Origin: Hericium rajendrae
Lineage: Eukaryota; Basidiomycota; Agaricomycetes; Russulales; Hericiaceae
Length of the DNA: 64,000 nucleotides
Direction: 5' to 3'
Assembly (NCBI GenBank): GCA_033439255.1
Contig: CM065888.1
Coordinates: 1,798,001 to 1,862,000 of the forward strand
The notes under the pieces are model-generated. The model was not told where the DNA came from. It was given only the letters and a program-made list of their open reading frames with translations, and made no database searches. The position numbers were made by a program, and so were the translations under genes. Below, piece after piece: positions 32,286 through 63,138 of the stretch. Positions within the stretch are counted from its first letter, which is position 1. Each line of letters opens with the position of its first letter.

Positions 32286-32866
32286 CATCAGGAAGGTTGA
32301 CAACTTTCTGATTGACCTGACAATTTCTAACCCTACTGACAGCTTCTGATTGACCTGATCCACCTGAAAGCAATCTTGAGAAGCAAATATCTGATCAGAC
32401 TTTTACATTCAAGAAAAGACATTTATTGTCAGATATATAAGTTTTTAATCTCTAACTAATAGATATATCAAAATCTTTGATATTTGAAATTTTTGAAAAT
32501 CTGAGAGTGTCTGATTTCAAATCTGGAGGTCAAATATCAGTCAGATGGATCAGACAGTGTCAGACACCATCAGATGCTCTCAGACAGTTGCAGATAATTT
32601 TCAGATATTTGACCTCCAGATTTGAAAAAATTCTCAGGTCAGACACTCTCAGATTTAGAAAATTTCAGATATCAGAGATTTTGTTATATCTATTAGTTAG
32701 AGATTACAAACTTATATATCTGACAATAAATCTCTTTACTTAAATGTAAAAGTTTGATCAGATATTTGCCTGTTAAGATTGCTTTCAGGTGGATCAGGTC
32801 AATCAGGAGCTGTCAGTAGGGTTAGAAATTGTCAGGTCAATCAGAAAGTTGTCAACCTTCCTGATG
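32286..32866. mobile_element. 581-bp fold-back MITE (family A), copy 1
   Basis: The ends are CATCAGGAAGGTTGACAACT and its inverse, with arms of about 270 bp that are nearly complementary over their length. TA flanks both ends. The length is identical to the copies at 39,167 and 41,883. TCTGA/TCAGA words fill the arms. No coding capacity. Confidence 0.9.
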
Positions 32867-36049: not shown

Positions 36050-36431
36050 CATCAGGAACCTTGACAACTTTCTGATTGACCTGCGGCCATCTGATAGCAT
36101 CTGTCAGAACTCGTGCGAGTGAAATCAGATGAATCAGATGGTATAAGCCAGCATCAGACACTATCAGACACTATCAGTTTGTTGGACCTCAAGCTGAGCT
36201 CAGAAATTTCTCAGAATGCTCTTAGTTTTATGTAAATTTTGGATATCAGAAATTATGCTATAGTGGATAGTTAGAGATGGATAACTACTATAGCTAACAA
36301 TAGATGTTAACTCTTAAATATATAAGCTGAATCAGATATCATTATTTGAAAAAGTAATCTCAGACAGATTAGATCCTACAGTAGGGTTAGAAACTGTCAG
36401 ACTCATCAGAAAATTGTCAACCTTCCTGATG
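36050..36431. mobile_element. CATCAGG MITE, 382 bp
   Basis: Ends CATCAGGAACCTTGACAACT and CAACCTTCCTGATG with the 2-bp flank TG on both sides. TCAGA-rich interior, no coding capacity. Inserted in copy 1 of the divergent-promoter repeat. Confidence 0.8.
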
Positions 36432-39166: not shown

Positions 39167-39747
39167 CATCAGGAAGGTTGACAACTTTCTGATTGACCTG
39201 ACAATTTCTAACCCTACTGACAGCTCCTGATTGACCTGATCTACCTGAAAGCAATCTTAACAGGCAAATATCTGATCAAACTTTTACATTTAAGTAAAGA
39301 CATTTATTGTCAGATATATAAGTTTGTAATCTCTAACTAATAGATATAACAAAATCTCTGATATCTGAAATTTTCTAAATCTGAGAGTGTCTGATCTGAG
39401 AATTTTTTCAAATCTGGAGGTCAAATATCTGAAAATTATCTGCAACTGTCTGAGAGCATCTGATGGTGTCTGACACTGTCTGATCCATCTGACTGATATT
39501 TGACCTCCAGATTTGAAATCAGACACTCTCAGATTTTCAAAAATTTCAGATATCAAAGATTTTGATATATCTATTAGTTAGAGATTAAAAACTTATATAT
39601 CTGACAATAAATGTCTTTTCTTGAATGTAAAAGTCTGATCAGATATTTGCTTCTCAAGATTGCTTTCAGGTGGATCAGGTCAATCAGAAGCTGTCAGTAG
39701 AGTTAGAAATTGTCAGGTCAATCAGAAAGTTGTCAACCTTCCTGATG
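39167..39747. mobile_element. 581-bp fold-back MITE (family A), copy 2
   Basis: Same ends and length as 32,286-32,866 but inserted in the opposite orientation. TA flanks both ends. Confidence 0.9.
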
Positions 39748-41882: not shown

Positions 41883-42463
41883 CATCAGGAAGGTTGACAA
41901 CTTTCTGATTGACCTGACAATTTCTAACCCTACTGACAGCTCCTGATTGACCTGATCCACCTGAAAGCAATCTTGAGAAGCAAATATCTGATCAGACTTT
42001 TACATTCAAGAAAAGACATTTATTGTCAGATATATAAGTTTTTAATCTCTAACTAATAGATATATCAAAATCTTTGATATTTGAAATTTTTGAAAATCTG
42101 AGAGTGTCTGATTTTAAATCTGGAGATCAAATATAAGTCAGATGGATCAGACAGTGTCAGACACCATCAGATGCTCTCAGACAGTTGCAGATAATTTTCA
42201 GATATTTGACCTCCAGATTTGAAAAAAATCTCAGATTAGACACTCTCAGATTTAGAAAATTTTAAATATTAGAGATTTTGATATATCTATTAGTTAGAGA
42301 TTAAAAACTTATATATCTGACAATAAATGTTTTTACTTAAATGTAAAAGTTTGGTCAGATATTTGCCTGTTAAGATTACTTTCAGGTGGATCAGGTCAAT
42401 CAGGAGCTGTCAGTAGGGTTAGAAATTGTCAGATCAATCAGAAAGTTGTCAACCTTCCTGATG
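41883..42463. mobile_element. 581-bp fold-back MITE (family A), copy 3
   Basis: Same ends, length and orientation as copy 1. The flanks are CC on both sides, which shows that the duplication is 2 bp and that TA is not required. Confidence 0.9.
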
Positions 42464-44499: not shown

Positions 44500-45290
44500 T
44501 AATTTACGATTCCTTAGAATCGTTTACTCTATACCGGGTTTTCCTATCGAAAACGACACCAAAACGACCACTACCCCCATTTGGCAGTCAGCTTATCTAA
44601 TTGCAAGATCACTGATCTGATGAGTTTGCAGGTTCAACTCCAGGTCTGGCCGAACTTTTAATTACATTTGATTTAATGTAACTTGATCAGTTCTCAACCA
44701 ATTCACCTGTTCTCAAATGCATCTGGATCTACTCATTTATCGCTTTCTGGTAGTATTTTTTGCATCCTGATCTGTGCAGAACTCACAGAGTGCAATGAGT
44801 TCCTACATTTCCCTCTGCAATATTTGAACTTAAGCTACCTTGGTCAATTCTCAGCCGATTTACTCGTTCTCAAGTGCGTCTAAATCTACTCATTTATAGC
44901 TTTCCAGCCATTCTTTGTGCATCTGGATCGGTTAAGAACTTGCAGAATGCGAAGCATTTCTTTGGTTTCCCCTCTAAAATGTTTGAATCTTAGCTAACTT
45001 GGCCAATTCTCCACCGATTTACTCGTTCTCAACTGCATCTAAATCTACTTATTTATCGCTTTCTAGCCATACCTCATGCGTCTAGAGTGGTCAAGAACTC
45101 GCAGAATGCGAAGCATTTCTTTGTTTTCCCCCTAAAATGTTTGAATCCTAGCTAACTTGGTCAATTCTCCACCGATTTACTCATTCTCAAGTGCATCTGG
45201 ATCTATTAGGAAGCCTGTCTTTAAAACAATTTACTATTTACAAAACGATAGAGCCAGTAAAAAGATATACAGCAAACAAAGATAGATAAT
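44500..45290 (+). repeat. tRNA-headed repeat with tandem body, copy A
   Basis: The head shares ACGATTCCTTAGAATCGTTT with 33,910-33,940 (inverse) and carries an A-box-like TGGCAGTCAGCTTA and the B-box GGTTCAACTCC at 44,630-44,640. About 3.5 tandem units of roughly 158 bp follow (44,680-45,210), each with AATTCTC, GATTTACTCGTTCTCAA and ATTTATCGCTTTC. The tail includes AAAAAGATATACAGCAAACA. This is consistent with a tRNA-derived SINE with a tandem body. Confidence 0.5.
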
Positions 45291-46960: not shown

Positions 46961-47039
46961 TTATTACTACCTTAGAAGTCAATTAAGTACAAAAAAAATC
47001 AATTATATTTAATGTGGCTAGTAGTACAATCAATTACAC

Positions 47040-48505
47040 TACTAATATGAACAACGCATGCCACACAGACAAGCGCGCTCAAGTGCATCAGGCGCGGCGG
47101 GCGTGCGGAGCACAGGAGTTGTGCGTGCAGCACAGCAGGCCTATCCGCGAGGCGCTGGGCCTGTGCATGAGGCACTGGCCTATCCGTGAGGTGCTAGGTC
47201 TGTGCGTGAGGCACGAGAAGCGCCGGGGCTGTGCGCACTGGCATCGGGCTGTGGCGGGCTCATATGCAAGACACGGGGTATGCGCGAGGCACAGCGGGGC
47301 ACGGCGGTGGGTGTGCTCAAGTCGCCGGGGTGTGGTAGGCCTAAGCGTAAAGCACAGCAGGCATGGGTGACACGTCGGGGTCCGGTGGCCACGCACAAGG
47401 CACGCCAGATGTTGCACAGGGCATGAGGCTCCTGCTGGCTCGTGCATGAGATATTGCGGGCACAGCGGCATTGTACACAGTGTGGCATCGTCCGCGAGGT
47501 GCAGCAGGTGTCCGCAGGATATGGTGGGTGTCTGCGGGATACGACAGGCATCGCGGGCCCGGGGGATGCCGTGGGAGGTGTGAGCGAGGCGTGGAGGACG
47601 TGAGCAAGACGTGGGGGATGTGAGCAAGGCGCGGGGGATGTGAGCGAGGCACGGGGGGCGTGAGTGAGGCACGAGGGGCATGAGTGGGGCACAGGGGGCA
47701 TAGGCGAGAGTGTAGAGGATGTGGGCGAGGTGTGGGAGCATGGACAAGGCACGGGGTGCATGCACGGGGTGCTGGACTGCTGCGGGCCCATACGTGAGGT
47801 ACGGCGGGCATCCTCTGGGTGCTGGCTTGTATGCGGGGTGTGGCAGGTGCAGCGGGGCGTGGCGGGCATGTGTGAGGCATCAGGCTCGTGCGTTACGCAG
47901 AGGCCTGCGTAGAGGCTCTGGGGCCTGCATGTGAGCACGCCTTGCATGGCCACGCATGACGTGCATGTGTGCGTGTACTGGCTGATGTGCCCGTGCATGA
48001 CCATGGCCATCCGCCAGCTGTGTGTGCACTGGCACACCTGGCCCGTGTGCGAAGGGGCATGCATTGTCCGGTGGTTTGTGGAGGTGATGTTGGGAGACGA
48101 GGAGTCAATGAGGGAGGGGTGGCAGCGAGGAATGGCAGTGAGGGAGGCCTGCAAGGGCAAAAGGTGGCAAGAGTATCACTCAAATGAGCGATACTCTCTG
48201 AGTTAGTACAAAAAAAAACATATAGAGGTTTTTTTTACTCACCTGCGGGGCCCTTGGCATCCCGCTACCCTCCTTCGGTGTTCGGTTTGATGGGAGAGGA
48301 CAGACAGAAGGGAGGAGGAGAGGGAGAGGTAAGTAGTGGTGGTCGAAGCTCGAGTTGAACATTCAAACTTCGACATGCATTCAGCCACCGAACGCGCACG
48401 AGTTTGAATGTCTTGAGCTTAGCAAATAAAATAAAATAGCCACAAATCCAAGAAAAAGACGTTGTGTACAATTTACCAATATAATTTGATTGCATGAGCT
48501 AACTA
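47040..48505. repeat. Divergent-promoter repeat, copy 3, body and intron part
   Basis: A GC-rich minisatellite-like body (GTGAGGCACGGGGG units, 47,060-47,900) is followed by a hairpin GAGTATCACTCA...TGAGCGATACTC (48,170-48,195), an intron on the minus strand (48,194-48,242, GTGAGT...CTAAC) and the leader part to 48,505, where a CATCAG end begins. The body gives a long biased minus-strand frame (47,180-48,160) that is compositional rather than a recognised protein. Confidence 0.55.
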
Positions 48506-48926: not shown

Positions 48927-49336
48927 CATCAGGAACCTTAACAATTTTCTGATGGGTCTGACAGTGTCTGACAGTACTCGTGCAAGTCAAATCAGATGCA
49001 TCAGACAGTATCAGATAGCTGTTAGTTAAATCAGACAGCATCAGACTCTATCAGACAATATCAGCTAAATAGACATGCAGACGCTGTAGAGATTGCTCAG
49101 ACTGCTCTCAGATTTGTGAAAATAGCAAATATTAGAAATTCTATTATGATATATAATTAGAGATGGATAACTCCTATAGTGAACAATAGGTGTCCACTCT
49201 TAAATGTATAAGCTAAATCAGATGTGATCATTTGAAAAGTGGCTGCAGACAGATCAGACTCTATGAGCTCTATCAGATACTGTCAGACACTGTTAGACAC
49301 TGCAAATCAATCAGAAAATTGTCAAGGTTCCTGATG
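48927..49336. mobile_element. CATCAGG MITE, 410 bp
   Basis: Ends CATCAGGAACCTTAACAAT and ATTGTCAAGGTTCCTGATG, flanked by TA on both sides. TCAGA-rich, related to the 382-bp element at 36,050. Confidence 0.85.
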
Positions 49337-49929: not shown

Positions 49930-50800
49930 TCATATTATATGCAGCTAGTTAGACTATTATTGACTCTATATCATCTTTACCAACAATGTTACTCAAAAGA
50001 TGCTAATTATAAGACATCTCAGATATTCAATATGATACACTATAAGATATGGTAAGACTGTAAGATAAAGACAAGATAAGATAAAAGATAAGATAAAGAT
50101 AAAACTTACTGTCAAGATAAGAAAAAGCGAAAATGATCTACAAAAGAAGTCAACAAATCAGTATCACAAAATAAAATAAAAACATAAGGCTTACCTAAGG
50201 AAATAAAAGCGAAAATGAAGTCTATGAAGAACGTTAGGGTTAAAAACAATCAAACAAAATAACATCAGGAAGGTTGACAACTTTCTGCTAGACCTGCGAG
50301 TAATCTGAGAGCATCTGAGAGCATCTGATTGACCTGCAGATTTTCTGATCTTGTCTGACAAATAAATCAGACACTCTCAGATAAGATCAGAAAATTTGCA
50401 GGTCAATCAGATGCTCTTAGATGCTCTCAGATTGCTCGCAGGTCTAGCAGAAAGTTGTCAACCTTCCTGATGAACAACATACCAAAGAAAATAAAAATGC
50501 AAAAATGCAAAGGCTATAGAAAAAAACATAAGGTTAGATACAATAAAACAAGAATACAACATATCAAACATAAGAAGATTAAAGCAAAAGGGAAGAGAGT
50601 GACGAGAGACGAGAGATGGTGGTGGTAGGGAAGAGAGAGAGCAAGCGCGTCACGCACGCCTTATATAGACATAGCAAGCGCCAAATGTGAGTGACGTGAC
50701 TCGGCCCGGGTGCTGCCGGAATGCTGCATCAGAGACTAAGGTGGCAGACATCATTAAGTTTGTGTTGCTGCCTGGTAGCCTGTAGTACAGTAGCTAGGTA
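49930..50800 (-). repeat. Divergent-promoter repeat, copy 3, TATA/micro-exon part
   Basis: Minus-strand relative of 37,725-38,395: promoter zone with CCGGGTGCTGCCGG, a TATATAAGGC box near 50,672-50,681, a CT-rich leader, and micro-exons around ATTTTCGCTTTT (near 50,120-50,150 and 50,195-50,225) bordered by TAG and GTAAG. A 210-bp MITE is inserted. Confidence 0.5.
50263..50472. mobile_element. CATCAGG MITE, 210 bp
   Basis: Near-perfect palindrome with ends CATCAGGAAGGTTGACAACT and inverse, flanked by AA on both sides. The smallest complete member of the set. Confidence 0.9.
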
Positions 50801-52850
50801 CATCAGTAAACCTCAAATTGTCTGACTTGTCTGAGATTTGCCTGAAATGTATCTGATTTTGCTTGATTTTGCTTAAATATAAGTTGTTAGATAGTCAGAC
50901 ATTCCTACAGGTGTCTATTGTCCAGACATCATCAGACTATATCAGAAAAAATTATCTGATATCAGACAAATATCTGACTCTCAGACCAAAAGTCTGACGT
51001 CAGAATAAAATCTGACTCTCAGATTAGAAGTCTGATATCAGACAATGTCTGAAATCAGAGCATGTCTGACATCAGATATCAAAGTCTGATATCAGACATG
51101 TGTTCTGATTTCAGACTTGGTCTGATATTAGCAATTTATCTGAAGTATCAGAACAGTCCTGATTTTGGTCTGATTTCAGACAGAGTGTCTGAAATCAGAC
51201 AGGTTTATTTTTCAGTCAACACATTGGAACATCAGTTCATATTCCGAAGTCAGACTTGAGTCAGACATCAATTCTATCAACAGATCTTAGATGAAACACA
51301 TCAGACCAGGTTAACCTCCAACCTCAGAATAAGGCAAACTAGCTAGGTTACAAATATATGAGTAATCTAATAGAGGCATGCCAGGGATGTAAAAGCTTCT
51401 GCACACAGTCAGATAGCTGAATACAACAATCATAGTGATGTAGAGTGTGCACAAAGCTGCAGGGCCTAGGTGTGTTAGCATGAGTCAAAAATAAGCCTGC
51501 CACCAAAAACAAGCCCACCTGATCAGAAGAGGAAAACCAGGGGATGCAGATTAGAGTATACCTTGTCAACAAAGTCAGCCAGTTAGAAGTACACCACACA
51601 CCTCACAGGTCGGCATCAGTAATCTTCAAATTTTCTGATTGGTCTGTAAATGGTCTGTAAATGGTCTGATTTTGTCTGATTGTTGCTATCAGACAATCAG
51701 ACAAATCATGTAGGTCCCCTTTTTTCAGACCACTTCAGATCATATCAGAAAAAAACTGTCTGATATCAGAACAAAATCTGATAACTTCAGACATATTTTA
51801 ATACTATCAGACAATCTTTTATATCATCAGATAATCTCTAACAATATCAGAAAATATTTGAAGTTGTCAGACAATCTCTTTTACTATTTAACAGTCTCTT
51901 ATATAATGAGAAAATCTCTTTTACAATGAGACAATGTCTTATACTATTAGACAATCTCTCATACTATCAGACAATCTCTTATACTATCAGATATTATCTG
52001 ATAGTATCAGAAAATCTTTAAAAGGATCAAACATTGTTTAAAGTTCTCAGATAATTTCTGCTATTATCTGAGATTGTCTAACAACTTTAACTATTTTCTG
52101 ATACTATTAAAATTTGTCTGACATTATTAGAGAATGTTTGAAGTAACCAGCCTTTGTTCAGAAGTTTAAAAGTTATCAGAATCAGAGTTTGCATTCATAT
52201 TCAGCTTGATTTAGATGAGTCATGTCAATCAAACATCTCAAAATTTTACTGAACAAAGATCAGACAGTATCAGATATTTATCAGAACATATGAAACTTAT
52301 CAGATGCTATTCAGATACATTGCATTTTATATCAAGTACAAATCAGTCAATCAGATTGAAATCAGAAGAATTCAATTCTGTATTCAGAATATCCAAAAGG
52401 TCTTCAGCTCAAAATCAGACCTTTTGAAGCAGTATTCAGACATTCAAAATCACACCAGATTATCAAAACCACTGCATTCTAAAATTATGCAGGTAAAACA
52501 ACTAAAACGCCCAATGCAGCACAAACCCAAAAAAGTAAGCCATAGATGAATGGAAATTAACAGTAAAAGTAAAGCATTAAAGTCATTAAAATGTCAAATA
52601 TATCAGAAAAGAGAATCTAATTCAGAAGTCAGATCAGATCAAATATCAGACAAGTTAAAACATACCCAGACAAAATTCAGATGCATCAGATTCTATTCAG
52701 AAGAGAAAATCAAAGTCAGAAATTAGCTCAGATCAAAGTCAAATAAAAGACAAACTCAGATAGAATTCAGAGAATTCAAATTCTGTTCAGAATCATATTA
52801 GCAAAATTTTGACAATGAAAATACAAATACAAACTATGTAGGGTATCAGT
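50801..52850. repeat. TCTGA/TCAGA-rich left subterminal region
   Basis: About 2 kb in which TCTGA, TCAGA and short variants (ATCAGACAATCTCTTAT) recur every 10-30 bases. 51,300-51,610 is a break of ordinary sequence. No gene. Confidence 0.65.
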
Positions 52851-52878
52851 TCTAGACTCTAAAAAAAATCAAGTCAGA

Positions 52879-55800
52879 TTACAAGGCAAAAAGATGAAAA
52901 AAATACACAAACTCTTCATCTTCACTCATAAAATCCAATAGCCCTGTCCTACGACGTCCACCAGCATCCAAATTATCACCTTCAGTCTCAGGATGAGTCT
53001 TAGCCCTAGACAAGCTAGCCTTCTGAGCAAGCTCCATAATGGCCTCCCACTTCTGATCTGAAAGGGCATCAATAGCCTTCATATAGTGACGAGAAGCTGC
53101 TCCCCAATTGGCAGAGCTAAATCTAGGATCTTCAAGGACACTTTTGGGAGCCTCTCCTACAGGCAAGAGCAAAAATAAGGCACGCTCCACCTACACAAAG
53201 TTAGCAACAACAAAGAAAAAAATAAGAAGAACTCACAGCCACTATGGCTAAGCAGAGAGCAGCCTTAGGCAATAGATTTGTCCTAGAATTAACAGGAAGA
53301 AAAGCAAGAGGAGACAGATGAGCAAAAGCAAGGGTGTTGATAATCATAGGATTCTTGAACATCCCAGAATGCTCCTATAAGAGACTTGTTAACAAGAGAA
53401 ATTATGATAAGAAGGAAACATACTGGATCTTGACCTGAGACCTTTTTAAAGGTCTGAAACACGAAGGGATATGTCCCACTATCGACATCAGCCTCATCAT
53501 CCCGAGGTCGTGTAGGACGCTCAGGTTCACGTCCAAGCAAGAAGCGAACACAAGCAAGATTCCGATCCTGCTCGTGCTTCTCACCCTTCTTGAACTCCTT
53601 CAGAGCTATCTCGTGCTGCGGCAAGTACTTGGTAACGACCTTCTCAGCGATAGGAGCAAAAGACCTCCTCCATTCGTAGGTACGTTGTCTGACCTGCATA
53701 AAAATTGTCAACAACAAGAAGGACACAGGTACAAGCACTTACCAAACGGAAGGCACCATCTCCTTTTGCAGCAAAGGTGTAGGGCTCGTCAGGGAAGCAG
53801 TGATCAAAAAGCTCTTGCACATGGTCCACTACGCCTGGGAAGTGGAAAGGGTCAGGAAAGGTGCCGCACTTGTCGCGCCACAGCGGAATGAACCAGTTGG
53901 TCCATTTTGATTTTTCGACGGGTGCATCATCATTGCTAGTACGATGGCGACCAGGTGTTGACTGATTGTCGACATCCAGCCCACCATCGGACTCGTCCTA
54001 AAAGAGATAAGTAGTGGACAAAAATAAAACAAATAATACACACCGTCATAGCAGACAATGTACGGCTCTAAGACAAGAATCTCAATCAGTAACAGTAGAT
54101 AACGAAAGATGAAAATATGATACCATTTTGCGTGCACCCGGCGTACGAGCAGCTGATGGAGTCTTCAAGCTTGATGGAGTGTTGGACTTGGATAAGGCCT
54201 TCGAGCTTGACGGCGTGCGGGGCGGGCGTGTCTGCTTCTTGATAGATGGCACAGACAGCGCGAGTGTTGCGGTGGCTTCGGGCTCGATATCGGATCCAAT
54301 CTTGCTTGCATCGTCCTGTTCGTCTTGTGCACTTTGCTCGCCTTGCTCATCGTGCTTGTCTTGTTCGTCGTGCTCGTCTTGTTCGTCATGCTCATCTTGC
54401 TCGTCTTGCCTGTCTTGCATGCCTTGCGTTCCGTACTCAACGTACCTGTCCCACTCAATATCGGATTCCGTCTTGCTCTCTTCGTCACCATCCTTGTCAC
54501 CTTGTCCTCCCATCTCCATCCCCATCTCACCATCCTGCTCATATTCATCTTCGGGATCCATCTCGTACTCGAGGACACGGCCGTCGGGGCCAGCTTCCTC
54601 GTCTTGCCATTCCGCATCAGTTTCGAGCTCGCCAGTCGCCGGTTGTGCAACACCCTTCGCGTTGGACTTCAAGAATTCCGTGGCCTTAGCAGCAGTCGTA
54701 TCCGGGCTGTCCCAGTCCGAATCTGTTGCGCCGCCAATCTCGGCAGGTACGTCGTCTTGATCTGCTTTGCTGGTACTAGGCTCAGGGGTAGGCATGGGGC
54801 GGGGAGGCGGAGTATTAGGAAAAGAAGCTTTCTATGTAGATATAGCTAGTCAGACCATTGTGACAAGGCAAATAAATACTACGTACCTGTTTCCCAGCAG
54901 CCTTCTTCGACATTGTCATCTGCTTCTGTGCAAACGTTCCGGAGGTATTCTGAAACAACACCAGACCATTAGTTAGCAAAGAACCGATGAAATGAGCAAT
55001 CAAAATACATACCTCGAACTTCTGTTGAGCCATGGGTTTCATCTGCAACAATGCGCAAATCCGACATATGAAACCAGAGCAGTTAGCAAATGAAACACGA
55101 ATGAAGCAAAATGAACAAGCAGAACACGTACCTGGGGTTTCTGAGAGGATCCCCCCGAAGATCTTGAGGCCTGATTATCTTCGGAGGGGCCTTTGGCCTG
55201 TAAGGCAGTGTGGGACATGAGGGGTGAGACGACGAAGATAGTTAGCACACGAAACATTTGAAAATGCGAGATACGACGTACCCGCAGTTTCTGAGAGCTT
55301 GAGGCCTGGACACCTGGGGCCGGAGTTTTGGCCTGTAAGAGGGTGCGAAATACGGGTAGTGAGACAAAGAAAGAAGTCAGCACACAAAACGTTCGGAAAT
55401 GCAAGAATACGGACGTACCTTTGTCTTTCCGGATGAACCGGGGGCCTTAGTGACCTTATGGGTGACTTCCACGATATTCTGGATCTACAGAACGAGATAG
55501 AGGAAATGTGACCAAGGAAAAGATGTGAGAAGACCTCACAAGAGATAAAACAACGACGTACCTTCAATCGTGGCTCGGCTCGTACGGACGCCGCCTCCAA
55601 CGTGTCGTCTTCACCCTCTGAATCGTCTGCCTCCGAATTACGGGCCAACACTTGTTGCTTGATGTTCTTACGACCTCTGGACTTCGCTTGCGTGGAACGT
55701 GTGCCGGATGTCGGTTTGGGATCGTCGGAAGGTCGAGGTGTGGCCGAGCCCGAAGTCTTCGAGGCCCCCGGCAGTTTGGACTGCCAGTCTGGACGAATGC

Positions 55801-57289
55801 CGCGAGGTCTAAGAGGTAAAGTCGTTAGCATAGCAGATACAAGGCACAGAGTTAGTAAAGCAGATAAAAAGTACAGTATTTAGACCGCAACGGTGAACGT
55901 GCGGGATGTACAAAGCGTGAGATAAGACGTGCCAGACGTGCGCGTGAACCAACCAGATACGGGTGCTCGTTAATTATCGAAAGAGGAAGTCTTGCTTACC
56001 TTTCATCAGATACCTCTCCGTCTTGAGCTTGAAAGCTAACCTTCTTGCTCCTACCGTTGGCCTTCGACACCTTCCTAGCATCCTCCTCATCGTCTCGCTC
56101 GCTGTCACCTTCGTTCCCTTCATCCTTTTCGTACATCCAACCCTCTTCGCCCTCTTCCGCCTCAACCTCGACGTGCGCGTCTTCGACCTCCGGAATCGGG
56201 CCACGATCGTCACGATCAGACACGATCTGGCGTTTCTTGGTGCCAGTCTTCGGACCTTTGCGGCGCTGCGTTGCGTTGGCTGGTTCGGGATCTTCACGAT
56301 CAACGCGATCGGATTTTCGAGACGGTGTGGAGTGCAACAGTAAGGTGAGTATCAAAGATCCTCCCGCATTGATTAAAAAAACTCACGATTGACTTTCGTT
56401 GGCTCTTGTGCCAGCCGTTCATCCCCTACACCTACGCCCGACTTACGACGTTTTCGACCTTCCTCCGGTATAGTTTCTTCGGCGTCAGCATTCCCTTCCG
56501 TGCGTTCACGCTTTCCTGTCGACTTTCCGGGGGCAGCAATCACGACCTCCGGCTTTAGACGAGAGGTTTGTCGAGGTTTCGACGTGGTTATCGAAGACTT
56601 CGAAGGGTTTACTTTACGTGCATTCGGTGAGTGCCCTTCTGCCGTCAGACGTGCAATATCGACTTACCTGCTGTACCTGTAGGTTTACCTACGGCGTTAG
56701 GAGCTGACACTCGACGATTCGAGTTTGCTGTCGAAGACCCTGCTGCGAGGTGAGTACTCTCCTACTGTCAGGTGTGCGATATCGACTTACCTGCCGTGCC
56801 CATAGGTTCATCTGCGGGATTAGAGGCCGACGCTCGACGTTTCGAGTTTGCGGCTGAAGACCCTGCTACTTTGCAATGTGAGTACACTTTCACTGTCAGG
56901 CCCATGTTATCGACTTACCTGCCATGCTCGTAGCCTTGTCCACGACGTTGGGAACGGAGACTCGACGCTTCGACTTAGTCGAAGGCTCGCCTTATTCGCG
57001 TGTCCGTGTGCAGCGTGAGTACCCTCCCTTCATAGACGATTGATATTATTGACTTACCTCCCACCGTGGCAGACCGACTTGTCACCAATTCAGCATCGTC
57101 GGCCTCGTTGCGCGCACGTTGCTTTTTGCGAGCAGGAGTTGCTGCTGCCTTCGCGGTGGCCTCGTCAGTCACCTGGTCCTCACGCCGCCGTTTCGTGGCT
57201 GCGGCTGTTTCTGCACCCAAAGATCCTAGGTGAGTGTTCGTATTCTTGGCCTTTGAAGTCTGCTGACGGGTCCTCGGTCGCGTATCCAT
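52879..57289 (-). CDS. Many-exon accessory protein of the transposon
   Basis: Starts MDTRPRTRQQTSKAKNTNT at 57,289. The N-terminal two thirds are charged and disordered: KRRR and RKKQR basic patches, three repeated small exons (56,668-56,994), acidic stretches (EDAHVEVEAEEGEEG), and a DEQDEHDEQ repeat near 54,330-54,420. The C-terminal part is globular: KWTNWFIPLWRDKCGTFPDP, VDHVQELFDHCFPDEPYTFA, RTYEWRRSFAPIAEKVVTKY, SGTYPFVFQTFKKVSGQ, FKNPMIINTLAFAH and LPKAALCLAIVAVERALFLL, ending at 52,879. That pattern resembles the basidiomycete DUF6532 group, a tentative call. More than 15 small introns. It lies head to head with the transposase inside the TCTGA flanks, so a role in transposition or target/chromatin binding is inferred. 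No clear lesion seen. Confidence 0.5.
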
Positions 57290-58046
57290 AGGAAAGAGGG
57301 ACGGGACTGAGCCAGAGGTGAAGTCGCAAGACAGCGGACAGAGCTCGGGTACGACTTGTCGCCAAATAGCTGCTGTGTCCTCACGTGATCCCATTGCCTT
57401 CGTCTCCCTCGCGTTCATCTTGCCCACCTGTTTGGACCCCTCGATAACCCAGCTCATCTTATAACTGTGTCTCTGGACAGCATTCACTGCCTCCCCACTC
57501 TATCTGCTTCAGGCCCTGCACAACATCTTTTACTCCCTGCCTCTGTCTGCCTCGGGCTGCATAGGCCTTGACTACTCGCTTGTGCTCCGTTATCAATATC
57601 TGCATTGCCTATCTACTTGGCGCTCCTTGTGCCGTGTGCTGCTCTTGTTATATCTACTCGGAGCTCCTTGTACGCTGTTTTTTCGATCGAGCTTGCTTGC
57701 TTGTGCCTCATCATAGCTCTTCTGAGTCCTTGTGCTGCCTATATTGTGTCCGCTACTTGCTTCTGCCTTGTGCATGCCCATTCATTTACCCGTGCTCTTG
57801 TACTGTCTTTGAGCCAATCTGGTTGATCTTGAGTCTACACATCTGCTACCAGGTCTACTATCACTTGACTAAGTTGACTTTGTATATTGGGACCTCTACA
57901 ACTTATTGATTGAATACACTTGCATGCTACGAGATTATCTGTGACTTTTGAGGGCATTATATCAAGGCCCTTGCACATATCTTTTGTGGCCTCTAAATTT
58001 TGTGTTGATATACACAACACGTGTTATTCTGTTGATTGCTCTTATC
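57290..58046. promoter_or_regulatory. Shared divergent promoter, accessory gene and transposase
   Basis: 757 bp between two start codons facing away from each other. It contains a small internal duplication (TACTTGGCGCTCCTTGT / TACTCGGAGCTCCTTGT). No long gene. It lacks the TCTGA density of the flanks. Confidence 0.5.
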
Positions 58047-61000
58047 ATGGCCCCTTCGAGTCGAAAGTCATATAAACCCCGTACATTTTTCTGTCCAAAT
58101 CCTGTGGGTCCTAGTTGTCGACGTGGGTTTATTACTGCTAGGGGCTTGACACAGCATATGGATGCAATACATCCTGACTTGCACAAAGATGACATTGCTG
58201 CAAAGAAGCCTTATCATCCACCTTCAGCTCCAACTCATCCATCATCATCCAAACAAGGCCAGCCAGATATGTTTTATGCTGATCCACATTATGGTGAACT
58301 TGATAATGATGCAGAGAGTTCAAATGCACAGTCTGGCACAAAAAATATGATGCATCCAGATCTAAATGGAAGACCTTGTGATGATACTGGAAATTATCTT
58401 GATGATGGTGCAGCTCCGCATCCAAAGGATATTCCTGATTCAAATGATTGGTCTCCATTTCGAAATCGGGTTGAGTTTGAGACTGCAGATCTATTATTTC
58501 GAGAAATGCCAGTTTCAGAGAAAAAGTTCAATCGTCTCATAGGGCTCTGGGCAAAGACAACTAAGGCATATCCATATGCAAATAAAGATGATCTTTATGC
58601 AGTGCTTGATTCAATTAAGCATGGAGATGCTGAGTGGTTATGTTTTTCAGTAAAATATAAGGGCAAGCTACCTAAAAAACCACCTTCATGGATGTCAAAG
58701 GAATTTGAAGTCTGGTATCGCAATCCACATACACTTTTACACAACCAGCTAAAAAATCCTGACTTTGCTGGAGAATTTGACTATGCTCCAAGACAAGATT
58801 TTAAGAAAAATAGTGAACGACAGTGGACAGACTTTATGACTGGAGATTGGTCATGGAAGCAGGCTGATACAATTGTAGCTGAAGATCCAACAAATAAAGG
58901 AGCTATGTTTGTGCCAGTGATCTTAGGCAGTGATAAGACTACTGTTTCTGTTGCTACAGGACATACTGAATTTTGGCCACTATATATGTCACCTGGAAAT
59001 GTACATAATAATGTTCGTCGAGCTCATCGAAATGCTGTGAGCATCTTAGGATTCTTGTCTCTTGGAAAGACAGATAGAAAATTTCAAAATCAGGCAGCTT
59101 TTTGTAGATTTCGTAGACATTTGATACACCAGTCTTTGCGCACAATTCTTGAACATTTGCGTCCTGGCATGACTACTCCAGAGATTGTTCGCTGTCCTGA
59201 TGGACATCTTCGTCGTGCAGTTTATGGTCTTGGACCTTATATTGGAGATTATCCAGAACAAGTATTGATATCATGTATTGTTTCAAAACAGTGTCCAAAA
59301 TGCTTGGCTCGACCAAATGATCTAGATAATGGTGGAGAAACCCGAAGTCATACACATACAGAATCCTTGATAAATAAGGGTACTAAGGCAGGAATACTTT
59401 GGGATGACTATGGCATAGTTCCTAATATTATGGTAAGTTCTGTCACCAAAACAAAAATACTTGTTCTGATTTCAATTTCTTTTTAGCCATTCACATATTA
59501 TTTTCCTCGGGCTGATATTCATGAGCTTATTGTATTTGATCTTTTGCACCAAGTGATCAAGGGTGTTTTCAAAGATCATTTAGTGGCTTGGGTTGAAGAC
59601 TATTTGATCAAAGAACATGGACCAGCTCATGCTACTGAAATTATGGCAGATATTGATAGAAGGGTTGCTGCTGCTCCTTCATTTCCAGAGTTGCGTCGAT
59701 TTCCTGATGGACGTGGTTTTCAGCAGTGGACTGGTGATGACTCTAAAGCTTTAATGAAAGTGTGGCTACCTGCAATTCAAGGACATGTTCCAGATCAGAT
59801 GGTCCGAGCTCTTGCTGCATTTATGGAGTTCTGCTATCTTGCACGAAGGTCTGTTATTGATGAGACTACATTAAATGCTATGGAAGCTGCACTTGAACAA
59901 TTTCATAAAGAGCGAGTTATCTTCAAAGATGTTGAAGTTCGCAAAGGATTTTCTCTGCCAAAACAGCATGCTCTGATGCATTATATTGAACTTATTCAGC
60001 TGTTTGGTGTGCCAAATGGACTTTGCACATCTATAACAGAGGCCAAGCACATCAAAGCTGTAAAGGAGCCATGGCGACGCTCTAGCAGATTTAATGCACT
60101 TGGTCAGATGCTGCTAACAAATCAGAGGCTTGATAAATTAGCTGCAGCTAAAAATGACTTTATTGCTCGTGGCATGCTTGATTTGCCTTTAGATCTTGTT
60201 GATATCAAATTTGAGTCACACTCAAATGACTCTGAATCTGAATTCTCATCAGATGATGAAGATGAAATTGAGTTTGATAATGAAGATGAAAATATTGAGA
60301 ATATTGAGAGAGCTACAAAGCATCATATAGATGGGGGACCAGCTCATAATGTACCAGAGTATATGGCAAGTGTCTCTCTTGCTACAACTCGAGCACTCAA
60401 ATATCCTCGACAACTTCATCTGCTTGAAACTTCTCTTGGTTATCCTGAGCTATCTGAGATGATTCAGCGATTTTTGTATGATCAACTTCATCCTGATCAT
60501 TCATTTGCACATGTAGATGAATCTAAACTGCCTCGTGCTCCATATAAAATTGATATATTTCACTCTGCTATTGCTGTATATCGTTCTCCTAGTGATTTAT
60601 CAGGGCTCACAAATATGCATCGTCATCGTATTCGCTCTACACCTGAATGGAGACATGGACCTGGACGTCGAGATTGTATCTTTGTAGAAAATAATTTAGA
60701 ATTGCCTGGAATGCAAGGACTTTATGTGGGACAAGTTCTGATGTTCTTTTCATTTATACATAATACAAAAACATATCCTTGTGCATATGTAGAGTGGTTT
60801 ATTCCTATTGGAGATAAGCCAGATCCAGATACTAAAATGTGGATTGTAGAACGAGAAGTTGATGAAGATGGTCAGAATATTCGTTCAGTAATTCATGTAG
60901 ATACCATTTTGCGAGGAGCTCATTTGATGCCTGTTTTTGGAGAACAATTTCTTCCTTTTGATTTTGATTATACTGATTCCTTAGATGCCTTTTATACATA

Positions 61001-61049
61001 TTATGTAAATAAGTTTTCTGATTATCATGCTAATGAAATAGCCTTTTAG
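58047..61049 (+). CDS. Plavaka-type DNA transposase
   Basis: Two exons (58,047-59,432 and 59,487-61,049) joined by a 54-nt GTAAGT...TTTTAG intron give 982 residues without interruption. The N-terminus has a C2H2-like finger (Cys16, Cys24, His37, His42; GFITARGLTQHMDAIH). Core signatures are LPKKPPSWMSKEFEVWYRNP, WTDFMTGDWSWKQAD, PVILGSDKTTVSV (Asp296), LYMSPGNVHNNVRR, GPYIGDYPEQVLISCIVSKQ with CPKC, DIHELIVFDLLHQVIKG (Asp480), and ITEAKHIKAVKEPWRRSS (Glu647). The three acidic residues are candidates for an RNase-H-fold DDE site. An acidic linker (DDEDEIEFDNEDENIEN) precedes the C-terminal domain. This matches the Plavaka group described in Agaricomycetes, related to CACTA/EnSpm and often discussed with KDZ elements. 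It looks intact. Confidence 0.85.
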
Positions 61050-61637
61050 TTTGAATATTTAGATCTTTTTTCAGTATATTGTATAAAAACAGGTAAATGC
61101 TCTTATTCTACTTTGTAATAATCATAGCCAAGTAATAGAGCTAATTTTTGAAAAGATTTGCATGTTTACTTATTCAAGTTTATATCCGATGTATATGATA
61201 TATCTGACTTTTATCTGAAAGTTTAAATAAATTTTAATATGTCTATGATTTGTAATTTGTCTGACTACTTATTTAATGTCTGATAATTATCTATATGTCT
61301 GACAAGACATCAAAGTCTGACAATTTTGACCTAGTCTGAAAAAAAAAAAAAACCTGTATAATTACTAGTATTTCTGATACTTTTAATTTGTCTAGGTAGA
61401 AATTAAATTTTTGACAGAAATTTTGAAAGTCTTTGATAACAATTATTGTATCTGACAAGATGTCAATATCTGAAAGATCTATGTTGATCTAAAATATAGA
61501 GATCTACATAATTATATCTAACATTTTTAATATTTCTGATTATTCATATAATGTCTGATAACAATTTATATCTCTGATAAAAATTTTATTCTGATAGTTC
61601 TAACTTAGTCTGAAAAATAGAGATCTACATGATTATG
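61050..61637. repeat. TCTGA-rich right subterminal region, outside satellite
   Basis: Transposase 3' end followed by AT-rich sequence with TCTGA-type words becoming denser from about 61,200. Merges into the 142-bp array. Confidence 0.55.
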
Positions 61638-62957
61638 TCTGATATTTGTACTTTGTCTGACTACTTATTCAATTTCTGATGATATGTTCAAGTCTGAAAC
61701 TTCTGATTTTGTCTGTAAGATCAAGACCTACATGATTATATCTGACTTGGTCTGAAAAATAGAGACCTACATGATTATGTCTGATATTTGTACTTTGTCT
61801 GACTACTTATTCAATTTCTGATGATATGTTCAAGTCTGAAACTTCTGATTTTGTCTGTAAGATTGAGACCTACATGATTATATCTGACTTGGTCTGAAAA
61901 ACAGAGACCTACATGATTATGTCTGATATTTGTACTTTGTCTGACTACTTATTCAATTTCTGATGATATGTTCAAGTCTGAAACTTCTGATTTTGTCTGT
62001 AAGATCAAGACCTACATGATTATATCTGACTTGATCTGAAAAACAGAGACCTACATGATTATGTCTGATATTTGTACTTTGTCTGACTACTTATTCAATT
62101 TCTGATGATATGTTCAAGTCTGAAACTTCTGATTTTGTCTGTAAGATTGAGGCCTACATGATTATATCTAACTTGGTCTGAAAAATAGAGACCTACATGC
62201 TTATGTCTGATATTTGTACTTTGTCTGACTACTTATTCAATTTTTGATGATATGTTCAAGTCTGAAACTTCTGATTTTGTCTGTAAGATCAAGACCTACA
62301 TGATTATATCTGACTTGGTCTGAAAAATAGAGACCTACATAATTATGTCTGATATTTGTACTTTGTCTGACTACTTATTCAATTTCTGATGATATGTTCA
62401 AGTCTGAAACTTCTGATTTTGTCTGTAAGATTGAGACCTACATGATTATATCTGACTTGGTCTGAAAAACAGAGACCTACATGATTATGTCTGATATTTG
62501 TACTTTTGTCTGACTACTTATTCAATTTCTGATGATATGTTCAAGTCTGAAACTTCTGATTTTGTCTGTAAGATTGAGACCTACATGATTATATCTGACT
62601 TGGTCTGAAAAACAGAGACCTACATGATTATGTCTGATATTTGTACTTTGTCTGACTACTTATTCAATTTCTGATGATATGTTCAAGTCTGAAACTTCTG
62701 ATTTTGTCTGTAAGATTGAGACCTACATGATTATATCTGACTTGGTCTGAAAAACAGAGACCTACATGATTATGTCTGATATTTGTACTTTGTCTGACTA
62801 CTTATTCAATTTCTGATGATATGTTCAAGTCTGAAACTTCTGATTTTGTCTGTAAGATCAAGACCTACATGATTATATCTGACTTGATCTGAAAAATAGA
62901 GACCTACATGATTATGTCTGATATTTGTACTTTGTCTGACTATTTATTCAATTTCTG
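61638..62957. repeat. 142-bp tandem satellite, about 9.3 units
   Basis: Units start at 61,638, 61,780, 61,922 and so on, at intervals of 142-143. Each begins TCTGATATTTGTACTTTGTC and contains ATTCAATTTCTGATGATATG and GACCTACATGATTATATCTG. Differences between units are few (CA/TG swaps in AGATCAAG/AGATTGAG, ATAG/ACAG). Each unit holds about seven TCTGA words. Confidence 0.95.
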
Positions 62958-63138
62958 AACAAAATTACTTATTTCTGCAAAAATTTAAAAATCTGATGAC
63001 TCTGATAGCATCTGAAGCATGTCTGAAGTCAAAAAAGTATCTATTCATTGTTTTATTCATATTTGAGTATCAGACATTAAAAAAATTTCAGATCAGTCAG
63101 GTCATCAGACCAGCCATTAAGTTTGGCTCTTCCTGATG

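Follow-up and report, generated by a model that had tools for sequence, protein, structure and literature searches.

A Plavaka transposon of Hericium rajendrae carries a DUF6532-like gene head-to-head with its transposase gene

In the genome of Hericium rajendrae, a Plavaka transposase gene and a divergently encoded accessory gene are held together in one mobile unit. This conclusion is drawn from the recurrence of the head-to-head gene pair, from target site duplications (TSDs) common to both genes, and from an empty insertion site. The window, a stretch of 64,000 nucleotides (C11:1798001-1862000; positions without a contig name refer to it), contains one copy of the pair, and the searched genome comprises 46.8 Mb in 19 contigs; its short introns and its Plavaka and TET/JBP complement point to a basidiomycete.

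The Plavaka transposase gene of the window copy (58047..61049, plus strand) starts with the ATG at 58047 and consists of exon 1 (58047-59432) and exon 2 (59487-61049), separated by a single intron of 54 bp (59433-59486, gtaagt...tttttag). Its translation of 982 residues contains no stop, in agreement with the uninterrupted transposase described in an earlier note on this DNA. The Plavaka assignment made there also holds, as the protein matches Pfam Plavaka PF18759 with an E value of 8.6e-130 and 433.1 bits, far above the cut-off of 26.3. All the motifs given for the CMCT clade in the accessible part of PMC12730594 (D, D, C(2)C, H(3-4)H and E) are present in the transposase, in strings whose first residues are 294 (GSDK), 399 (IGDYPEQ), 416 (CPKC), 623 (HALMH) and 645 (ITEAKH), the catalytic residues being picked by eye, without an alignment. 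The dN/dS ratio relative to two near copies is 0.24 (C13:72810 copy) and 0.32.

The accessory gene (52879..57289, minus strand) is modeled as 18 exons forming one open frame from 57289 down to 52879 and encoding 1,087 residues, consistent with the divergent, many-exon gene previously noted. Homologues back only the last exons (54831-52879), while for exons 1-12 the model draws only on splice signals and an uninterrupted frame. The 757 bp separating the start codons (57290..58046) are presumed from the layout to be a divergent promoter. A 123-bp exon-intron tandem duplication at 56626-56990 holds three 72-bp accessory exons. The predicted protein has a charged N-terminal half followed by acidic repeats and a C-terminal DUF6532-like domain (exons 53997-53743, 53693-53424, 53374-53237 and 53190-52879). 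Basic and acidic clusters are abundant in the N-terminal 519 residues, for which a Pfam scan gave no match. A DNA-binding domain was looked for in the accessory protein and none was found, and a PDB sequence search with this protein returned no convincing relative (best E 0.072).

DUF6532 (PF20149) is the only Pfam match of the window accessory domain, with an E value of 0.022 and 15.1 bits for a cut-off of 24. It is also the sole match of four further paralogues scanned singly, every score being under the cut-off (E values of 0.0024, 0.012, 7e-5 and, for the C9 unit, 1.3e-4; best score 23.2 bits); the 7e-5 comes from the orphan locus C9:1867k, and most of the scanned sequences are projections onto the window protein and therefore lack their own insertions. 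Five of the seven members of the accessory alignment match DUF6532. Canonical DUF6532 copies in two distant units reach 91 and 83 bits, and hhalign comparison of the accessory protein with same-genome canonical DUF6532 gave probabilities of 0.03% and 0.02% from shallow profiles with Neff below 2. By eye, an intron ahead of the corresponding block is common to the window, C9 and canonical genes, with junctions between IVA and VERAL, TAV and VERAW, and LLAV and IENC, respectively. Locus L044 was considered as a bridge to canonical DUF6532 and dropped because its match and the DUF6532 match are on opposite strands. Judged by these matches, the accessory protein is a remote relative of the family, DUF6532-like rather than a member. 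The charged N-terminus described in the earlier note is thus retained, and the DUF6532 assignment suggested there is reduced to a remote match below the Pfam cut-off.

Genome-wide, the search yielded 132 Plavaka, 99 accessory and 18 DUF6532 matches, clustered into 77 Plavaka loci and 59 accessory/DUF6532 loci. These counts are lower bounds because the search proceeds exon by exon and scores the best candidates only. Clustering joins same-strand matches less than 4 kb apart, so that at least two pairs of neighbors on C13 are fused; in the locus list, L002 is the window, and L004 and L048 are a single locus. A head-to-head Plavaka locus lies within 15 kb of 44 of the 59 accessory loci (33/44 of the window type and 11/15 of those found with the DUF6532 model only), 4 loci have one only in another orientation, and 11 have none. 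Shuffling the strands gave 26.0 +/- 3.1 head-to-head pairs (maximum 36 of 2000) and random positions gave 1.4 (maximum 7 of 2000). The pair is thus found elsewhere in the genome in the very order predicted; we rejected a chance neighborhood of the genes on this recurrence, and a single-copy host gene on the 59 loci. Counted by transposase, 44 of the 77 Plavaka loci are paired head-to-head with an accessory gene and 33 are without a detected one.

The accessory gene standing without the transposase, named in the earlier note as evidence against its reading, does occur, at the 11 of 59 loci lacking Plavaka within 15 kb. Codon comparison of four of these orphans, representing three independent loci, revealed stops in two of the three. 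Stops occur in the orphans C7:2687k and C12:1398k, which are duplicates of one locus, and in C9:1867k; C1:4327k was matched only partly, and the remaining seven orphans may include an intact solitary gene. A dense cluster of Plavaka and accessory loci is seen at C13:48000-141000, where some inverted pairs have identical match scores.

Ends were read for 11 units with TCTGA arrays, the window copy included, and for one distant unit, all picked for nearness or diversity among 45 head-to-head spans. All 11 TCTGA units start with CATCAG and finish with CTGATG. In eight of them, both genes are enclosed by matching TSDs of 2-3 bp: C11:1982516-1993177 (TA), C7:3056824-3067983 (CA), C4:1699795-1710662 (C4a; CTC, a 3-bp TSD whose last two bases alone are unmatched), C9:1681679-1691546 (CG), C10:75265-85017 (TA), C4:1685208-1695833 (C4b; CA), C4:1832747-1841621 (C4c; TA) and C3:1360932-1375345 (TC), the end coordinates being accurate to a few bases. 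The TSDs are unmatched in the other three, C12:966055 (cc/ta), C13:51661 (tt/ca) and the window copy. The distant unit, C4:1119862-1132277, spans 12,416 bp, starts with CATCTGGAAAAAGTG, ends with CACTTTTTCCAGATG and has the TSD TG; a paralogous segment at C2:~3873245 has no insert and TG once, providing the empty site. This unit holds DUF6532, Plavaka and a Tet_JBP match under the family cut-off, and its flanks are almost without TCTGA. Ends were also sought in the distant units C9:547k, C7:2176k, C2:26k and C4:344k, and none were found. Taken together, these TSD-flanked units and the empty site establish the two-gene mobile unit that had been proposed. As for insertion boundaries between the two genes, which would have spoken against it, the ends lie outside both genes in the end-read units, where little inter-gene DNA was inspected.

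The long TCTGA-saturated flanks of the window copy are borne out by counts of TCTGA plus TCAGA: 88 on the left (50801-52878) against 15.4 +/- 3.8 in order-1 simulations, and 86 on the right (61050-63138) against 17.6 +/- 4.0, with a simulation maximum of 30 of 500 on each side. The left subterminal region of the accessory half (51614..52878, minus strand), delimited by similarity to an orphan locus and by motif polarity, starts with CATCAGTAATC and has 42 of its 51 TCTGA motifs pointing outward and 9 inward. The right subterminal region (61050..63138, plus strand), defined by the counts and by similar ends, has 83 of 86 outward and 3 inward, and ends with ...CTTCCTGATG at 63138; right ends like it are found in C11, C7, C4, C13 and C3 copies. 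A tandem repeat with a 142-bp unit (61599..62958, plus strand; 9.6 copies with 97% matches in TRF) makes up much of the right array. Over 11 flanks of 6 units (14,883 bp), TCTGA occurs 610 times for 124.5 expected and is mostly outward; two of seven units depart from this polarity on one side (C4b right, C4c left). Considering the idea that TCTGA is a decayed CpG motif, TCCGA on either strand was counted in the same 14,883 bp and found once for 0.6 expected. No TCTGA arrays were found in the distant DUF6532 units that were read.

Elsewhere in the window, six short segments bounded by CATCAGGAA..TTCCTGATG, paired by eye, have equal 2-bp flanks: 32286-32866 (TA), 36050-36431 (TG), 39167-39747 (TA), 41883-42463 (CC), 48927-49336 (TA) and 50263-50472 (AA). 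They are probably non-autonomous Plavaka-like MITEs. A tandem repeat with a 159-bp unit (3.3 copies, TRF) occupies 44679-45205, and a GC-rich island (0.64) at 47000-48200, within an AT-rich TE region, contains tandem repeats with 20- and 40-bp units as well as an open frame of 331 codons.

Two lineages have recombined to give the window copy itself, whose left boundary is uncertain. CATCA/TGATG termini, as in PlavakaB, are seen at two left ends and at the right end, and the bases outside them, ta (50801) or gg (51614) on the left and tc on the right, give no matching TSD. Each of the earlier limits of the unit, 50801 and 63138, therefore resembles a Plavaka end, but the additional left end at 51614 and the unmatched TSDs leave the left limit in doubt. 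The outer stretch (50801..51613), recognized by similarity to the C11:1982516 copy and by the flank mismatch, consists of a second Plavaka left end, CATCAGTAAACCTC, and intervening DNA. Positions 50796-51131 resemble the left end of that C11 copy (83% over 344 bp), and the outer end probably derives from another copy. In turn, 51627-52518 resembles the C12 orphan accessory locus (71%), to which the C7 orphan is alike, and the orphan locus has its own left end, CATCAGTAACCCTC, similar to that at 51614. We rejected 50801 as the only left end, as the 51614 end fits the accessory half better.

Codon comparisons are in line with a mixed origin. Relative to the C13:72810/78773 unit, which has one in-frame stop in each of its two genes, the window transposase has a dS of 0.228 and a dN of 0.054 over 975 codons, and the window accessory domain a dS of 1.06 and a dN of 0.23 over 287 codons; the accessory-domain dS relative to the orphan C7:2687k is 0.41. 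In other pairs the two genes agree: C13 and C4a are 95% identical in the transposase and 93.5% in the accessory gene, and C13 and C12:1144k about 96% and 94.4%. Across accessory types, transposases are about 87-93% alike, and accessory domains have 59-73% DNA identity. We infer from these sequences that halves have been exchanged between units, because concordant and discordant pairs are both seen, which an accessory gene evolving faster throughout would not produce. Accessory-domain dN/dS is about 0.2-0.3; the accessory codon comparisons covered 14 merged loci in one set and nine loci plus the window in another.

The window copy may have kept or lost the ability to move. One possible though rather doubtful reading makes it an immobile composite, in which a transposase half and right end recombined with the accessory half and left end of another lineage, beside the left-end relic of a third copy. 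Left ends at both 50801 and 51614, neither with a TSD matching 63138, would be explained in this way, as would the dS of 0.23 versus 1.06 against one C13 unit; yet the transposase and accessory frames are both open, the CATCA/TGATG ends are intact, and mismatched TSDs alone do not prevent movement.

The CpG content differs along the window copy. Observed/expected (o/e) values rise from the flanks (0.07 and 0.02) through the transposase gene (0.42) and the inter-gene region (0.56) to the accessory gene (1.00; GC 0.506), which is host-like; window positions 1-29000 have 1.03. The same gradation is seen at other loci, where CpG stretches were cut by hand with introns included: 0.00-0.15 in flanks of the TCTGA lineage, 0.30-0.44 in the transposase genes of eight distinct loci including the window, and 0.57-1.00 in nine paired accessory loci including the window (0.57-0.99 in the eight others). 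C6 (0.39, five stops, a tandem Plavaka 12 kb off) was excluded from the paired set. Orphan accessory loci range from 0.32 to 0.63 (n=4), with the C18 orphan at 0.17, and overlap the paired range. Canonical DUF6532 loci in distant units have values of 0.65-0.82 (n=4). The CpG-poor flank appears to be a trait of the TCTGA lineage, because the flanks of the distant C4 DUF6532 unit, at 0.66 and 0.86, are not CpG-poor. CpG loss with an excess of TG/CA is the trace that decay of methylated cytosines usually leaves. The escape of the accessory gene is consistent with a long-term lack of methylation; coding constraint or composition could contribute.

Profile searches of the genome gave 46 Tet_JBP and 5 DNA_methylase matches. 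TET/JBP-like matches occur in 6 of the 45 head-to-head spans, in all six beside canonical DUF6532 and on its strand, and no Tet_JBP match was found in the window span or the other window-type spans. Among the units found, a DUF6532-type partner is thus more common than TET/JBP. In C9:547k, a stop ends the TET/JBP-like reading about 250 bp ahead of the start codon of the DUF6532 gene. That gene is laid out like the window gene, with a charged N-terminus followed by an acidic stretch and DUF6532, and the spliced TET/JBP-like part passes Pfam with 36.5 bits for a cut-off of 34.9. Tet_JBP copies form equal-score groups of 4 to 9 across many contigs, as would be expected of a TET-bearing element that moved recently; of the 40 Tet_JBP matches outside Plavaka spans, only one is within 15 kb of a Plavaka locus.

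The accessory protein looks like a dedicated transposition partner rather than a host gene that is nearby by accident, because the pairing recurs in units with matching insertion scars. We favor, with modest confidence, a PlavakaB-type cut-and-paste transposon whose accessory protein acts on its own subterminal DNA, in end assembly or anti-silencing. A DDE transposase with a C2H2-like N-terminus would cut the CATCA..TGATG ends, and insertion would create the 2-3 bp TSD. The nuclear-looking DUF6532-like protein, encoded head-to-head, is a regular Plavaka partner in this genome and may act on the subterminal DNA, that is, on the mostly outward TCTGA arrays in this lineage. It might help to build the transposon ends, like TnpA of En/Spm, or keep the transposon unsilenced, like VANC of VANDAL, and a TET/JBP-like gene joins the unit in one lineage. 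DNA binding, the target motif and either role are putative properties. The distant DUF6532 units without TCTGA arrays and the non-uniform CpG-poor flanks count against this explanation: as these units differ, neither pattern is family-wide, and a simple TCTGA-binding model is weakened because the canonical DUF6532 units that were read have no such array. Also against it are the negative search for a DNA-binding domain, the sub-threshold DUF6532 score and negative profile comparison, the polarity exceptions, the loci of either gene that lack a head-to-head counterpart (33 of 77 Plavaka, 15 of 59 accessory), the 3 of 11 units with unmatched TSDs, and the overlap in CpG between orphan and paired accessory loci.

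These same distant units lend some weight to a cofactor or chromatin adaptor that works by contacting other proteins, TET/JBP or remodelers perhaps being recruited in this way, without recognizing TCTGA arrays on its own. Such a role would suit the long, acidic and basic N-terminus, the TET/JBP-like sequence beside canonical DUF6532 in 6/45 spans, and the lack of TCTGA arrays in the TET/JBP-bearing spans whose flanks were read. It is nevertheless unlikely in our estimate, as all 11 TCTGA units read combine the array with the accessory gene and window-type spans are without any TET/JBP match. Captured cargo with no part in transposition or silencing seems more improbable still. The host-like GC (0.506) and CpG (1.00) of the accessory gene would fit it, as would deeply different accessory types beside transposases that are about 87-93% alike; however, one accessory family accompanies Plavaka transposases of several lineages, its dN/dS is 0.2-0.3, and two of the three independent orphans compared have stops. 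Two independent elements adjacent by chance could explain the unlike GC and CpG of the halves, but the recurrent gene order, common TSDs and empty site make this reading almost untenable.

Beyond action on subterminal DNA, we can only speculate, and think it unlikely in so complete a form, that DUF6532-like proteins constitute a sequence-specific anti-silencing system encoded by fungal transposons. Each type would bind the subterminal DNA of its own Plavaka unit and block cytosine methylation, joined in some lineages by a TET/JBP oxidase that the transposon carries, and swaps of the accessory half would change target specificity. The units reported here offer a first testable role for DUF6532, a domain of unknown function, and a possible fungal counterpart to plant transposons encoding factors aimed at their own subterminal repeats. 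A natural comparison set is at hand in units that have or lack TET/JBP, units that have or lack TCTGA arrays, and units with exchanged halves.

Among known systems, PlavakaB of the CMCT clade is similar in its Plavaka transposase domain, its 5'-CATCA..TGATG-3' termini and its TSDs of 2 or 3 bp, and both TET+ and TET- Plavaka families are described (PMC12730594). In contrast, the accessible part of that article names no DUF6532 partner, and the window unit has no TET/JBP match. DUF6532 and Plavaka both appear, unlinked, in a domain list in the accessible part of PMC8955403, and our literature search, which did not extend to the 2014 paper naming Plavaka, found no link between DUF6532 and Plavaka units. 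Canonical DUF6532 (PF20149) copies occupy the same position in the unit as the window accessory gene, which differs in scoring under the curated cut-off. TnpD and TnpA of En/Spm (CACTA) are spliced from one element gene, whereas the accessory gene here is separate and divergent, with no Pfam match to a TnpA-type family; VANDAL and VANC of Arabidopsis are a transposon and a protein of another kind than Plavaka and its partner. The likeness to En/Spm is in the combination of a transposase and a second protein with reiterated subterminal motifs, which are recognized by TnpA, a protein required for transposition, as far as the accessible text of PMC2613891 describes them. VANDAL, in the accessible part of PMC10398659, likewise encodes a second protein whose motifs lie in noncoding tandem repeats and whose targets diverge fast.
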